A DNA stretch of 64,000 nt from positions 124,001-188,000 of the forward strand of contig UEIJ01000005.1 in the NCBI GenBank assembly GCA_900470195.1, read 5' to 3'. The stretch is from Hyphomicrobiales bacterium (GTDB lineage: Bacteria > Pseudomonadota > Alphaproteobacteria > Rhizobiales > Rhizobiaceae). Each line of letters begins with the position of its first letter. Within the stretch, counting starts at the first letter, position 1. Shown piece after piece: positions 35,111 to 39,289 of this stretch. The translations under genes were made by a program, and so were the position numbers. The notes under the pieces are model-generated. The model was not told the DNA's origin. It saw nothing but the letters and a program-made list of their open reading frames with translations, and did no database searches.

Positions 35111-35125
35111 TGGTGCGGATGGAGA
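35111..35125 (-). other. probable attachment-site core: 3' end of a tRNA-Leu
   Basis: Read leftwards, these 15 bases (TCTCCATCCGCACCA) look like a tRNA 3' end: half of the T-stem, a 7-base acceptor strand CATCCGC, discriminator A and CCA. The T-loop consensus is missing just beyond, so only the 3' piece remains. This is expected on the side of a prophage away from the rebuilt tRNA. The same bases also form an inverted repeat with CCGCACCA at 35130-35137. Confidence 0.5.
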
Positions 35126-35436
35126 GCAGCCGCACCAAACCCCACCCATTGATTTCCTTGCACAATATCCACCGCAAAGGTAGTCATGTGTCCCAGTTTG
35201 TGTCACAGTACGTATCGCAAAATTGCGCCGCAAAATCACACGTTGGCGCACCTACTACAATCAGCGCCAAAAAAACACAAGATCGGAATACTGACTGCCG
35301 AACAAACGGTTCACAATAATAGAACTCGGCCATGGCATTTTTGGGACGACAGTTCCCCTTATCCAGACGGCTATGCGACATGCAGGAATCACGATACGCT
35401 CGCGCTTGATTACCTCACGGGGGAGGAATTCGAGGC
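35126..35436. other. non-coding left-end region of the prophage
   Basis: No credible gene is seen between the att-like sequence and the proteasome-like gene. The stretch is AT-richer than the core DNA and contains a short 12-base repeat cluster. It probably holds the promoter of the next operon. A Shine-Dalgarno sequence (GGGAGG, 35421-35426) lies at its right end. Confidence 0.5.
35188..35223. repeat. three imperfect 12-base tandem units near the attachment site
   Basis: The units are GTGTCCCAGTTT, GTGTCACAGTAC and GTATCGCAAAAT. The first two differ at three positions and the third is more divergent. Arm-type integrase-binding sites often lie in such a position, 60-110 bases from the core. 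The repeat is short and could be chance. Confidence 0.3.
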
Positions 35437-36702
35437 ATGACATCTGAAGTCTGCATGATGAACCGGCTGGCTGTAGTGTTAGCCGCCGACAGCGCTACCA
35501 CTGTATCGAGGTGGGTAGATGGCAAAAGAGAAGAGCGCTATTTCAAAGGCGCGAACAAAATCTTCCAGCTTTCTAATAGGCATCCCGTTGGGATGATGAT
35601 CTTTGATTCCGCATCAATTCTGAGTGTGCCGTGGGAGACGATCATAAAGTCCTTTCGGCAGGAAATCGGAATAAAATCGTTCAATACTGTCGAAGATTAC
35701 GCGAGCGAACTGTTCAGCTATCTCAACAACAATCAACGATACTTTCCTGAACAAAAGCAGATCGAGCAGTTGGCCAGAGCTGCACAGGGTGTCTCATACG
35801 GCATTATCATATCGGCAATAAAAGACGTCGACGACGCCGATAGATCTGCGGCCATTGACAGCGCATTTTCAGAGAAGGATCGCGCACTTGCTGAAATTGG
35901 CCTCCCAAATGGCTTGAATGAGGACAATGTAGAGCAAGCGTTGGGCGATACGAGAGCATCAGTCTCGGATGTGATGGCTGATTTTCTTCAACATATCGAG
36001 GTGCCGGTTCCCGCGAACATCGACGGATGGTCCGATACAGCCATAAGGGAAGTTATAAAGAACCCAGATCGATACCTCAGCACAACAGGTCTCGTATTTG
36101 CTGGGTTCGGAGACCATGAGTTTTTCCCATCGATGGTCGAATACTGCCATTGCGGAATAGTGAGTGGTCGCCACATATACAAAAGGCAGGCTGCCGAAAC
36201 GATCGATCATGACAAACCTGCCTGGATTTCTGGTTTCGCACAAACTTCGATGACCGATACATTCTCCTTGGGTTTGAGTGCAGACGTCTACGAATCACTG
36301 ATGGTTGCTGTAAACGACACGATCAGGAGCTTTGCGGAGGACATTGCCGCGCAAAGTGGGGGCCAAATGGCCGCAATTGACGATGTGGAGGCTTTGCTTC
36401 AGTCTGCGAAGGATAAAATACGGGACGCAGTACTTGACAAAGCTCGCAAGGAGCACTCTTTGCCCCTTCGGAGCGTCCTCAGCTCCCTCCCTGTTGATGA
36501 GATGGCGGAATTGGCTGAGACATTAATCACTCTTCAATCGTTGAAGGAGAAGGTAACGAAGCCCTCCGAAACGGTTGGTGGGCCCGTAGATGTTGCAATC
36601 GTGACCAAGCATGAGGGACTTGTCTGGATTAAAAGGAAACATTTCTTCAATTCAGACATTAATTCTAGATATCAGCTGCGACAGGCAGCATTGAACACAT
36701 GA
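35437..36702 (+). CDS. proteasome/HslV-like N-terminal threonine hydrolase candidate
   Basis: This is a 421-residue protein of no named family known to me. Its N terminus resembles proteasome beta and HslV subunits. Thr2, exposed if the initiator Met is removed, is 16 residues before Asp18 in VVLAADSATT, exactly the Thr1-Asp17 spacing. A lysine follows in KGANKIFQLS (Lys41), a Lys33-like position after a longer loop, then PVGMMIFD. Later strands GLVFAGFGDHEFFPS and VDVAIVTKHEGLVWIKRK also look Ntn-like. The ATG at 35437 has GGGAGG ten bases upstream. It is twice the usual subunit length, with an extra helical region. It forms a two-gene unit with the next ORF. Protease activity is inference. 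Confidence 0.6.
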   Translation: MTSEVCMMNRLAVVLAADSATTVSRWVDGKREERYFKGANKIFQLSNRHPVGMMIFDSASILSVPWETIIKSFRQEIGIKSFNTVEDYASELFSYLNNNQRYFPEQKQIEQLARAAQGVSYGIIISAIKDVDDADRSAAIDSAFSEKDRALAEIGLPNGLNEDNVEQALGDTRASVSDVMADFLQHIEVPVPANIDGWSDTAIREVIKNPDRYLSTTGLVFAGFGDHEFFPSMVEYCHCGIVSGRHIYKRQAAETIDHDKPAWISGFAQTSMTDTFSLGLSADVYESLMVAVNDTIRSFAEDIAAQSGGQMAAIDDVEALLQSAKDKIRDAVLDKARKEHSLPLRSVLSSLPVDEMAELAETLITLQSLKEKVTKPSETVGGPVDVAIVTKHEGLVWIKRKHFFNSDINSRYQLRQAALNT

Positions 36703-36718
36703 CCGGCGGAGCAAACAT

Positions 36719-36919
36719 ATGACTTCTCAACCTAATTCACTTCGGAAGGCAGTCGACAGGTCGGAACCCACTAAGGATAAACTCCCTCCCCGTCGCATGA
36801 CCGTTGATACCGAAACCATCATTTCCGAAAGCCGCCGACAGTATCGGGGCGTTATCGAAGCAATTAATCGATCAAGTGACAAAGACATTGAGCGAGCGCT
36901 AAAAGCAGCTTCTTATTGA
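36719..36919 (+). CDS. 66-residue protein of unknown function, downstream of the Ntn-like gene
   Basis: I do not recognise this protein. It is hydrophilic, with a Pro/Lys/Arg-rich first half that is probably disordered (about residues 1-28) and a helical second half (ETIISESRRQYRG to the end). It starts 16 bases after the proteasome-like gene with a GGCGGAG ribosome site, and a terminator follows at once, so the two are likely co-transcribed. Its size recalls Pup, but it ends in AASY and lacks the Gly-Gly-Glu/Gln end, so it is not Pup. It could be a partner, regulator or substrate of its neighbour. Confidence 0.6.
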   Translation: MTSQPNSLRKAVDRSEPTKDKLPPRRMTVDTETIISESRRQYRGVIEAINRSSDKDIERALKAASY

Positions 36920-36923
36920 TCTC

Positions 36924-36947
36924 AACCCCGCTCCGGCGGGGTTTTTT
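36924..36947 (+). terminator. terminator of the Ntn-like two-gene unit
   Basis: The stem AACCCCGC/GCGGGGTT (loop TCCG) is followed by six T residues. Confidence 0.92.
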
Positions 36948-37089
36948 ATTACCCCATACATGGGAGTCCCGGAGGTTCTAGGGATTTCCGGCCTTTTCAA
37001 TGGCTTGCAGAAAAGTGGGACAGAAAAGCATGCGTTATAATCATTATGTTTTTTGATGCACCTGCCCCACCGTTCCATCCACGATGATC

Positions 37090-37767
37090 CTACAAATGGA
37101 CGCCTATCCTTTTAACGATGGAGTTGACGTTCTGGGAAGCCATCAAAAGAAAGTCGAACGGGTTTTGATTATTGTCAGATAATTCCGCCTGTATCTCTTC
37201 AATCAGGTCGACTTTTACTCTCTGAGCTCTTCCTGTTGTTTGATCCCAAGCGAACCCTTTAAAGTCGACCACGCCTCCGCTGACTGTCATATGTTCGATA
37301 TAAACATTTTGACCTGCGCCGATTCCAACTCCCCGCGAAACACGAGGATTTATAATGCTCGGATATCGCTCATGTCGGATGGCAGCAATATCCTTCAACA
37401 GCTTCCACCAACAGGCATCGCCAGCAACGAACGGCTGAACTTGCGATATTATCTGCTCTAGCTCCGGCGCAACTTCGCTCAAATGTGCGAGACGATAACG
37501 TTGCAGGCGGTCCAAGTATTTTTCGGCAAGTATTTCACATGGGAAATAGACATCCGGCTTTCTATTCTTATCACGCACATAAGATTGCCAGACAGCGTTC
37601 ATCACCTTGTCCATTGACAAGACAAGAGAATTCACCACATCGCCGATTTCAATTTCGCAATCCTGCCGGATCTCTCGATCTCTCAAATCTAGTTTCGCAG
37701 ACTTAAGATCTTTGGCCTTTTTCAAACTCCGATCAATTGCGCGAGAAATTGATAGATCAATTGGCAA
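37090..37767 (-). CDS. helical protein of unknown function
   Basis: This protein has about 225 residues if translation starts at the TTG at 37767, which has GGAGG six bases upstream; the open frame reaches back to 37821. It is largely helical and charged, with a short beta-like end (NVYIEHMTVSGGVVDFKG). The segment WWKLLKDIAAIRHERYP resembles the W...K/RHxR pattern of some HEPN-like helical proteins found in defence and accessory loci, but this is only a resemblance. It lies on the minus strand between two plus-strand cargo units, in AT-richer DNA. Confidence 0.55.
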   Translation of the reverse strand: MPIDLSISRAIDRSLKKAKDLKSAKLDLRDREIRQDCEIEIGDVVNSLVLSMDKVMNAVWQSYVRDKNRKPDVYFPCEILAEKYLDRLQRYRLAHLSEVAPELEQIISQVQPFVAGDACWWKLLKDIAAIRHERYPSIINPRVSRGVGIGAGQNVYIEHMTVSGGVVDFKGFAWDQTTGRAQRVKVDLIEEIQAELSDNNQNPFDFLLMASQNVNSIVKRIGVHL

Positions 37768-37918
37768 TTCCGCCCTCCATCGCCCAGATTGTGCGCCCAC
37801 TCTATGAAAAGCGTTACCCAATAACAGTCAACCGATTTGCTCGAACTGAAGATAAACGATCTTCATCGTGGAGGATTGGGACAGCGGAAAAATGCAGATT
37901 GACTTAATTTCAAAATGA

Positions 37919-37960: not shown

Positions 37961-38014
37961 TGAGCGCATAGGTGCACGGGGCGGGTTGCGCTTGCCCTGA
38001 TTTTGGAGTGTGCC

Positions 38015-39289
38015 TTGCGCCTTCCTGAGACTATAGAGCGTCTTTATTTGGACTTTGACGGCTTTTTTGCGAGCGTCGAACAGCAATGCGACCGGCGTTT
38101 ACGTGGTCGCCCCATCGGAGTCGTGCCCTTCGAAGGCACCGACCGCACTGCCGTCATTGCCTGCTCGAAAGAGGCGAAGAACTTCGGCGTTAAAAATGTC
38201 ATGCCGATCAAAGAAGCGAAGCGGTTATGCCCCGATCTTATCCTAGTCCCGCAAAAGCCAGATCTTTACCGGCGCGCTCACAATGCCCTGCTCTGCGAGA
38301 TCGAGACTGTCATCGCAATCGACACAGCCAAGAGCATTGATGAGCTGACATGCGTTCTCGACGACAGCGGCAAGCGAGATCCGGAGCTATTGGCAGCGCG
38401 CATTAAATCGGCGATCTCTGACAACATCGGCCCGTTCATCACATGCTCAATCGGATTCGCCGCAAACCGCCAGCTTGCAAAGATCGCCTGCAAGGCCGGG
38501 AAAGAAGAAACAAAGCGTCGAGCATCCTACGGCAATGGACTGGCCATTTGGTGGCCTGCGATCATGCCGGACCCGCTTTTGCGCGTCGAGCTGGAGGATA
38601 TACCCGGAGTCGGATCGAATATGGCAAAGCGGCTTTATCGCAATGGCGTGTTTACAACCACCCAGCTCTACGCCTTACAACCGAAACACATGCGGAAGAT
38701 TTGGAACAGCGTCAACGGTGAGCGACTTTGGTATGCCCTTCACGGCTATGATATCCAGGCGCCAGCACAGCAGCGCGGAATGTTTGGCCATGGTCGCGTT
38801 TTGCCGCCTGAAGCCCGCTCAATAACGGGCGCTTATGAGATATCCCGGCTACTGCTGACCAAAGCCGCCCGCCGTCTTCGTCGTGAAAATTTCTATGCAG
38901 CAGGGTTGTGGCTATGGCTTTCAGTGCGTGACGGATCATGGTTCGGCAAACATTACTTGCCGGTAGTGAATGACGATCAAGCTATTCTGTCGGCGCTGCG
39001 CCTGCTCTGGCAACGCGTGCGAGACGACCATCCGCGAGGCATAACCATCTTTCGGGTCGGCGTGACGTTGTATGATCTGTCACCAGCAGGCGAGCGTCAG
39101 ATGGATATGCTGAATAATGACGATGCCGCGCGCCAGAAATGGGAAAAGGCAAACAACGCCGTCGATACGCTCAACACGAAATATTCCGGAACCATCGTAA
39201 GCATGGGCGAATGGAAACCGCCTGCAGGCGGGCACGTGGGCGGCAAGATCAGTTACACCCGCATCCCGTCCGCAGAGGATTTCTGGTAA
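38015..39289 (+). CDS. Y-family (UmuC/DinB-like) translesion DNA polymerase
   Basis: This 424-residue protein belongs to the error-prone polymerases that copy past damaged bases. The first catalytic aspartate is in YLDFDGFFASVE (about residue 13) and the second acidic pair in SIDELTCVL. An HhH-like element (EDIPGVGSNMAKRLYRNGV) and the little-finger domain follow. The start is TTG at 38015, with GGAG six bases before it; a TTG at 38003 is also possible. An SOS box lies upstream, so damage should induce it. Its stop overlaps the next start (TAATG), so the two are translationally coupled. Such pairs are common in Rhizobiales phages. Confidence 0.88.
   Translation: MRLPETIERLYLDFDGFFASVEQQCDRRLRGRPIGVVPFEGTDRTAVIACSKEAKNFGVKNVMPIKEAKRLCPDLILVPQKPDLYRRAHNALLCEIETVIAIDTAKSIDELTCVLDDSGKRDPELLAARIKSAISDNIGPFITCSIGFAANRQLAKIACKAGKEETKRRASYGNGLAIWWPAIMPDPLLRVELEDIPGVGSNMAKRLYRNGVFTTTQLYALQPKHMRKIWNSVNGERLWYALHGYDIQAPAQQRGMFGHGRVLPPEARSITGAYEISRLLLTKAARRLRRENFYAAGLWLWLSVRDGSWFGKHYLPVVNDDQAILSALRLLWQRVRDDHPRGITIFRVGVTLYDLSPAGERQMDMLNNDDAARQKWEKANNAVDTLNTKYSGTIVSMGEWKPPAGGHVGGKISYTRIPSAEDFW

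Follow-up and report, generated by a model that had tools for sequence, protein, structure and literature searches.

In 2021, Fuchs, Alva and Lupas described 22 proteasome homologues (PMC8665760). One of them is PMI-4, the proteasome homolog with multiple insertions, whose function is unknown. In the parts of the survey that describe it, PMI-4 carries one insertion after H1/H2 and another between H3/H4, and occurs in bacteria of several phyla, in Euryarchaeota and in phages. PMI-3 has both insertions too, but of the two only PMI-4 is listed for phages in Table 1 of the survey. For the new homologues the same source found neither a telling genomic context nor an AAA+ partner that occurs along with them. 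Here we analyse a phage-borne enzyme that fits PMI-4 in its insertions and taxonomic range, an assignment made by the published description. It is encoded by a 421-codon open reading frame (ORF), ORF421, in 64,000 nucleotides from a Hyphomicrobiales bacterium (GenBank assembly GCA_900470195.1, contig UEIJ01000005.1, positions 124,001 to 188,000). We call this whole stretch the window.

The family of the window enzyme shares with PMI-4, as described, the two insertion sites and the spread over bacteria, archaea and phages. Compared with PMI-4 as published in those parts of the survey, the present analysis adds two things, a small partner gene that recurs and a clade linked to ubiquitin-like genes. 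In searches of the open-licence literature we found neither in print.

Enzyme and small gene form a two-gene cargo unit. We think it on balance probable that the enzyme is an N-terminal-threonine peptidase and that the small protein, as a partner of its own, either aims it or holds it back. With the 20S proteasome beta subunit (1PMA) the enzyme has in common the predicted core fold and the Thr1/Asp17/Lys33 triad. It differs in its length (421 residues against about 200), its two helical insertions and its Thr, which stands right behind the start codon with no propeptide. Compared to Anbu (5LOX, 5NYW), the helical insertions are longer.

Presumed catalytic residues of the enzyme

An earlier note, made from the letters of the window alone, had pointed to an ORF in which Thr2 and Asp18 are spaced as in proteasome beta and HslV and a Lys follows. 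Lack of conservation of the three residues in homologues was one of the outcomes that the note took as a refutation. The ORF is real and correctly placed, with Asp18 in VVLAADS, 16 residues past Thr2, and Lys41 in ANKIFQ. The conservation holds as well: all three residues are retained in 158/158 translated relatives (135 distinct sequences from genome and viral contigs). Ser19, Gly218, Gly223, Gly225 and Pro231 are likewise invariant in the 158, and Thr2 always sits immediately after an ATG, GTG or TTG start.

The relatives stem from 160 loci, half of them genomic (80 of 406 confirmed) and half viral (80 of 164). Two of these, L091 and L092, were excluded because their match begins at residue 42. 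The scan used the peptide patterns AADSA and VGGPxDVA for genomes, and VGGPxDV and GLVFAGxG for viral contigs. Hence the patterns themselves favour, in part, the presence of Asp18, Ser19, the glycines and the C-terminal motif, whereas Thr2 and Lys41 are in no pattern. A search of a protein set, with 8000 candidates scored, gives 2064 proteins that match the enzyme at E <= 1e-3. Together with the triad in all 158 relatives, this puts the catalytic pattern beyond chance. Among PHROGs the enzyme matches phrog_5990 over its full length (E 2.6e-81), a family with matches in 0/14 control genomes.

The genome records of the relatives name, among bacteria, Alpha-, Beta- and Gammaproteobacteria, Bacteroidales, Bacillota, Planctomycetota, Acidobacteriota and Anaerolineae and, among archaea, Pyrohabitans, Altarchaeum, Methanosaeta, Thermoplasmata and Thermococcaceae.

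Met-Thr starts are processed by methionine aminopeptidase, and N-terminal nucleophile (Ntn) hydrolases work through the freed alpha-amino group. Judging from its Met-Thr start, removal of Met1 would expose Thr2 of the window enzyme. In two E. coli prophages (L235, L236) the annotated enzyme start lies about 30 residues upstream of the family's MTAE start. An in-frame Met falls exactly at MTAE in both, so the annotated N-terminus is probably too long.

At position 57, presumed to lie at or near the oxyanion Gly47 of the proteasome, 109 of the 158 relatives have Gly, 27 have Asn and 17 have Asp; the window protein has Asp. Taking the conserved residues together with the predicted fold, we regard the enzyme as very probably an active Thr hydrolase.

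Fold and family

The structure model of the enzyme has the proteasome/Anbu fold at moderate confidence (mean predicted local distance difference test score, pLDDT, 72.8; predicted template modelling score, pTM, 0.64). The Ntn fold that the earlier note had expected is thus found in the prediction. The model consists of one core and two helical insertions, at about 105-213 and 317-349. With helices assigned by eye, the helices at 105-213 come after H66-77 and H85-98, and helix 317-349 falls between 282-307 and 353-373 (340-348 and 365-383 are of low confidence). Two other parts of the note did not stand. "Double-length" in the sense of a second domain gives way to the single core, and on the model a duplication or double domain is ruled out. 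Nor does the layout lack a named family, since PMI-4, in the description cited above, has it.

A profile of 86 relatives, searched against 177,635 PDB sequences, brings three proteasome beta entries to the top (1PMA and kin, E 0.0055-0.0066). It places Thr2 on Thr1, Asp18 on Glu17 and the Lys on Lys33, with single segments that are weak alone (i-Evalues 0.29 and about 430). As Lys41 corresponds to Lys33, the loop preceding the Lys is longer in the enzyme. The single sequence gave chance matches only in the PDB.

The Pfam Proteasome family PF00227 matches 2/86 relatives (best E 2.4e-4) and is absent from the Pfam matches of the window protein (maximum E 10, HMMER filters on). Matches of the window protein to DapH_N (E 0.16) and WcaC (E 0.042) were rejected as not significant. 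The 86 relatives have no match in NCBIfam and a single marginal one in PADLOC, Cas6d (E 8.1e-4), which was rejected as chance.

The small partner gene

Directly downstream of ORF421 lies ORF66. The earlier note had asked whether this frame is conserved next to homologues, and it is. An ORF66-like ORF occurs in 10/172 loci, some of which are one locus from two sources. Compared with locus L001 (Brucella pecoris), nonsynonymous differences are fewer than synonymous ones (pN 0.135, pS 0.677), and by this measure ORF66 is under purifying selection. Terminator-like sites number 7 in the region compared with 2.1 in shuffles, and the two-gene unit ends at the hairpin behind ORF66.

Small genes accompany the enzyme in most of its loci. 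An ORF of 40-95 amino acids with a ribosome-binding motif follows directly in 104/130 distinct loci, compared with 122/787 control ORFs, which are other ORFs of at least 250 amino acids in the same loci. With ATG starts the numbers are 95/130 and 72/787. The ORF had to start between 35 bases before and 120 bases after the enzyme stop, and the best candidate was taken. An alternative tally, 106 small ORFs in 139 loci, differs by four phage records and the flank rules.

Profile searches from hand-picked seeds sort 61/119 small ORFs into four families, A to D; in each of the four, 0/2380 shuffled sequences pass. Family A has 11 members, ORF66 included, and is rhizobial and otherwise alphaproteobacterial. 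Family B has 28 members from bacteria and archaea with an aromatic-aromatic-Pro core. Family C has 13 members, and family D has 9, counting near copies. On a FastTree tree of 136 enzymes, 67 of them without a label, the family and ubiquitin-linked labels need 4 changes, the minimum possible. Support is 100 for A, D and the ubiquitin-linked group and only 5 for C; B needs 2 changes. The partner families follow the enzyme tree. We regard the small gene as very probably a true functional partner.

Database searches with the small proteins gave matches that we rejected. The best PHROG match of ORF66 has E 0.043, and 22 small proteins match six Pfam families with one member each, DUF1127 being the best (E 0.0037). 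In the four E. coli records that we opened, a family-D small gene stands directly downstream of the enzyme in two, and no convincing one in the other two. At L233 and L234 a 49-residue family-D ORF lies directly 3' of the enzyme (downstream of 7213) and is unannotated in RefSeq.

Table 1. Coordinates of the enzyme gene, its partner and the surrounding prophage features in the window.
Feature	Position	Strand	Remarks
PMI-4-like proteasome-fold N-terminal threonine hydrolase (predicted)	35437..36702	+	ATG start, 421 aa; phrog_5990, function unknown
Thr2 codon, presumed nucleophile once the initiator Met is gone	35440..35442	+	158/158 relatives
Asp18 codon, equivalent of proteasome Asp/Glu17	35488..35490	+	158/158; aligned to Glu17 of proteasome beta
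Lys41 codon, equivalent of proteasome Lys33	35557..35559	+	158/158; profile alignment
Asp57 codon, at or near the place of oxyanion Gly47	35605..35607	+	equivalence to Gly47 presumed
Small partner gene ORF66, second gene of the unit	36719..36919	+	66 aa; ORF66-like ORF in 10/172 loci
Terminator-like stem-loop and T run	36924..36943	+	5 bases past ORF66; consensus match
Prophage left attachment repeat, 14 bp	35111..35124	.	second copy L167:13069-13082, tRNA-Leu 3' end, beyond the window
Cargo block, absent from the G003 prophage	35290..37880	.	123 bp in its place
ORF243	37090..37821	-	243 aa as listed, TTG start uncertain; 0/172 related loci; no PHROG or Pfam match
Phage DNA polymerase gene	38003..39289	+	phrog_1268; first gene in common with cassette-free G003; also in L001

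The ubiquitin-linked clade

Iyer et al. (2006, PMC1779556) described bacterial ubiquitin-like operons (row 6e) that combine an E1 with an N-terminal JAB-like part and a fusion of multi-ubiquitin and E2; their section on this operon type names no proteasome-like gene. A similar pair of divergent genes lies 1.1-1.3 kb from the enzyme gene in 7/79 distinct genome loci (L023, L026, L028, L058, L062, L079 and L080), 66 of the 79 including at least 3.4 kb upstream. At L026 one gene of the pair encodes a ThiF E1 (E 9e-28) whose N-terminus resembles JAB weakly (E 0.009), and the other a Multi_ubiq fused to Prok-E2_E. The other six loci encode relatives of both proteins at about 59-71% identity. An eighth locus, on a Mesorhizobium plasmid, keeps the order: ThiF, multiubiquitin, two hypothetical proteins, enzyme. 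In contrast to row 6e as set out in that section, a PMI-4-like enzyme closes the divergent arm in these eight loci.

The eight ubiquitin-linked enzymes form one clade with support 100, and the Thr, Asp and Lys are present in all of them. A downstream small gene is present in L026, L028 and L079; none is convincing in L023, L058, L062, L080 and the plasmid. Between the divergent pair and the enzyme lies a protein of 190-228 residues that is similar in all eight loci. By eye this protein (L026:8924-9607; also L023, L028, L058, L062, L079, L080 and L238) looks sigma-factor-like; the L026 copy has no Pfam match. The ORF directly before the enzyme, 131 amino acids as annotated in Mesorhizobium, has similarity detectable among some loci only.

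Among 398 Pseudomonadota genomes, Multi_ubiq occurs in 15 (30 loci) and the enzyme in 10. The 30 Multi_ubiq loci and 11 enzyme loci in 9 genomes, the window's own locus not among them, never come together within about 1.5 kb. Hence the link to ubiquitin-like genes characterises one clade, and we rejected it as a trait of the whole family. The L026 ubiquitin/E2 protein has weak partial matches in 3/299 genomes. In the genome of the window the one Multi_ubiq match (G000:C39:48831-49031) lies on contig C39 and the enzyme on C61; E1 genes were not searched there.

The prophage and its cargo site

The enzyme gene is cargo of a prophage of about 42 kb inside a tRNA-Leu gene. The left host flank of the prophage is present in 24/24 same-genus genomes. 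Eleven loci were compared in detail. Host DNA is shared by all of them up to window position 35124, and ten continue without an insert at 77069 (L167:13069). The prophage ends have a 14-bp repeat in common, the 3' end of tRNA-Leu(TAG), which is intact at the far end. This tRNA copy, just past the far end of the prophage, adjoins an ORF that by eye reads as a tyrosine integrase; inside the window there are no tRNA genes.

The eleventh locus (G003) carries a related prophage in the same site, and the matched pieces are collinear at 72-80% identity. Higher identity is found only in a tandem-repeat gene and in the host flank. G003 goes from 35289 to 37881 with 123 bp between, and thus lacks the block of ORF421, ORF66 and ORF243. 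Other stretches unmatched in G003 (e.g. 49.0-51.2, 66.0-67.8, 69.8-71.6 and 73.5-75.6 kb) are replaced by DNA at least half as long.

A third arrangement is found in L001. Its phage DNA past the cassette is 95-97% identical to the window, the enzyme piece 84% and the ORF66 piece 77%, with an unmatched gap between the two, and ORF243 is absent. The window, G003 and L001 thus represent three states of the cargo spot. That G003 has a related prophage but not the block supports what the earlier note had said of the gene, that it is phage-borne cargo.

The genes at 41-60 kb encode tail sheath, baseplate, tape measure, head and portal proteins, which indicates a contractile-tailed phage. ORF243, which separates the cassette from the polymerase gene, seems to have entered the cargo site by an insertion of its own. 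At the other prophage end, beyond the window, a second cargo pair lies beside the integrase-like ORF (L167:9590-11460). It comprises a 459-residue ATPase (AAA_15, AAA_21) overlapping a 165-residue gene without a Pfam match, and is unmatched in G003. Another prophage ORF (L167:8396-9340) contains a nine-residue unit, SAATATGDR or a variant of it, many times over; the G003 prophage has it repeated too.

Distribution on mobile DNA and in genomes

The enzyme gene is sporadic. With the window's own genome counted, it occurs in 1/24 same-genus genomes, in 9/297 genomes of the family, four of them by short partial matches, and in 10/398 of the phylum. Related DNA is held by 22/5426 E. coli genomes in short distant matches, with 12-14% query cover in the best 15 of the 22. 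Matching records number 13/50,697 for phages and 10/72,556 for plasmids.

In the mobile records that we opened, the enzyme occupies positions typical of accessory genes. It is the last gene, after the lysis genes, in Streptococcus phage Javan85, and next to last, before a 55-residue gene, in satellite Javan103. It precedes the holin in Providencia phage PSTRCR_117lys and is oriented against the neighbouring genes in Stenotrophomonas phage BUCT708. Two E. coli prophages carry it between antiterminator Q and a methyltransferase; in two others it adjoins helix-turn-helix regulator genes.

Function of the two-gene unit

In the reading that we favour, the enzyme would be made ready by methionine aminopeptidase, which cleaves off Met1. 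Thr2, with Asp18 and Lys41, would then attack a peptide or isopeptide bond, as conservation and fold suggest. The helical insertions may replace ring gating, such that no dedicated unfoldase would be required. The small partner, to judge from its linkage and shared descent with the enzyme, would bind the enzyme and either restrain it or deliver its target. We lean slightly towards a partner that acts on the enzyme, as inhibitor or adaptor.

The small protein could instead be the substrate, a precursor on which the Thr hydrolase acts in the manner of connectase, by cutting or ligation, to release or join a peptide. The pairing of a single enzyme with a single small gene and their shared descent would be expected in this case too. 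The small proteins evolve quickly and retain short motifs, for example the aromatic-aromatic-Pro core of family B. Furthermore, connectase, itself a proteasome homologue, is a ligase according to the 2021 survey (PMC8665760). However, an alignment of 22 small proteins has no invariant column, and hence no common cleavage-site motif. In addition, the first helix of the enzyme model begins only at residue 66, past the place of the two-helix insertion of connectase (strands 3-4), with residues 20-26 and 30-37 of low confidence. We find a substrate role doubtful.

A unit for addiction or abortive infection, in which loss of a labile small protein would set a toxic peptidase loose and so kill a cell after infection or curing, seems to us still less probable. 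The solitary two-gene unit, its sporadic distribution and its presence on phages, satellites and plasmids would suit a pair resembling toxin and antitoxin. Yet the small gene lies downstream, and antitoxin genes are usually upstream of the toxin; PADLOC gave no toxin match for the window protein or the 86 relatives. The least probable case is an idle scaffold resembling proteasome alpha, in which Thr, Asp and Lys are conserved for something other than hydrolysis. In its favour, 44/158 relatives have Asp or Asn where Gly47 is presumed, and the window protein has Asp there; against it stand Thr2, Asp18 and Lys41 in 158/158 sequences over bacteria, archaea and phages, and Thr2 immediately behind the start codon.

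Several observations weigh against a peptidase with a dedicated partner. The enzyme model is only of moderate confidence, and its pLDDT falls below 50 at residues 1-5, 20-26, 30-37, 268-277, 340-348, 365-383, 399-413 and 419-421, which takes in the nucleophile and part of the C-terminal region. The window protein has nothing significant in Pfam, NCBIfam or PADLOC, and carries Asp rather than Gly at position 57. The small-gene test is failed by 26/130 loci and is generous, with the best start taken in a 155-base window and loose ribosome-binding motifs, and 58/119 small ORFs belong to no family. In the Pseudomonadota loci compared, Multi_ubiq and the enzyme do not come together within about 1.5 kb.

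The neighbourhoods count on the same side. Among the 130 nearest neighbour ORFs from 72 non-ubiquitin genome loci, Pfam finds no recurrent function (any family <= 3/130), with no recurrent AAA+ family among the 25 families listed of 126 matched. In PADLOC no family exceeds 2/130 among the 25 listed of 163 matched; those listed include type I specificity subunits, mad2, mad5 and pVip. Without a recurrent family and without a baseline set, these scans neither support nor exclude an enrichment of defence genes.

Under our preferred reading of a peptidase with its partner, the unit in the prophage would be accessory cargo, most likely of service to the lysogen. Accessory position, sporadic presence and exchange at the cargo site fit genes that benefit the lysogen, superinfection exclusion among them. 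The earlier note had named defence, lysogen protection and host-protein turnover as candidate roles. That the enzyme serves the lysogen against other phages is a tentative idea, which we hold to be less likely than its opposite.

The ubiquitin-like conjugation genes beside one clade suggest a common theme, the cleavage of tagged or adaptor-delivered proteins. Delivery of tagged proteins is the most attractive such theme, though it comes from one clade and the window cassette has no such genes known. Taken further, the small partner could mark or bring in targets, as a tag or adaptor of its own for a proteasome-like peptidase able to work without an unfoldase. The ubiquitin-linked clade could then have gained ubiquitin-like conjugation on top of the partner or in place of it. 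This is speculative, and we rate it as rather unlikely. If true, the prophage cassette would be the minimal form of a wider family in bacteria and archaea, of compact and mobile systems made up of a tag and a threonine peptidase.

A subfamily of proteasome homologues described in 2021 with no hint of what it does gains two clues: a small partner gene, which follows the enzyme in bacteria, archaea and phages, and a ubiquitin-linked clade. The latter bears on the long-standing issue of whether the ubiquitin-like systems of bacteria supply a protease with its targets.
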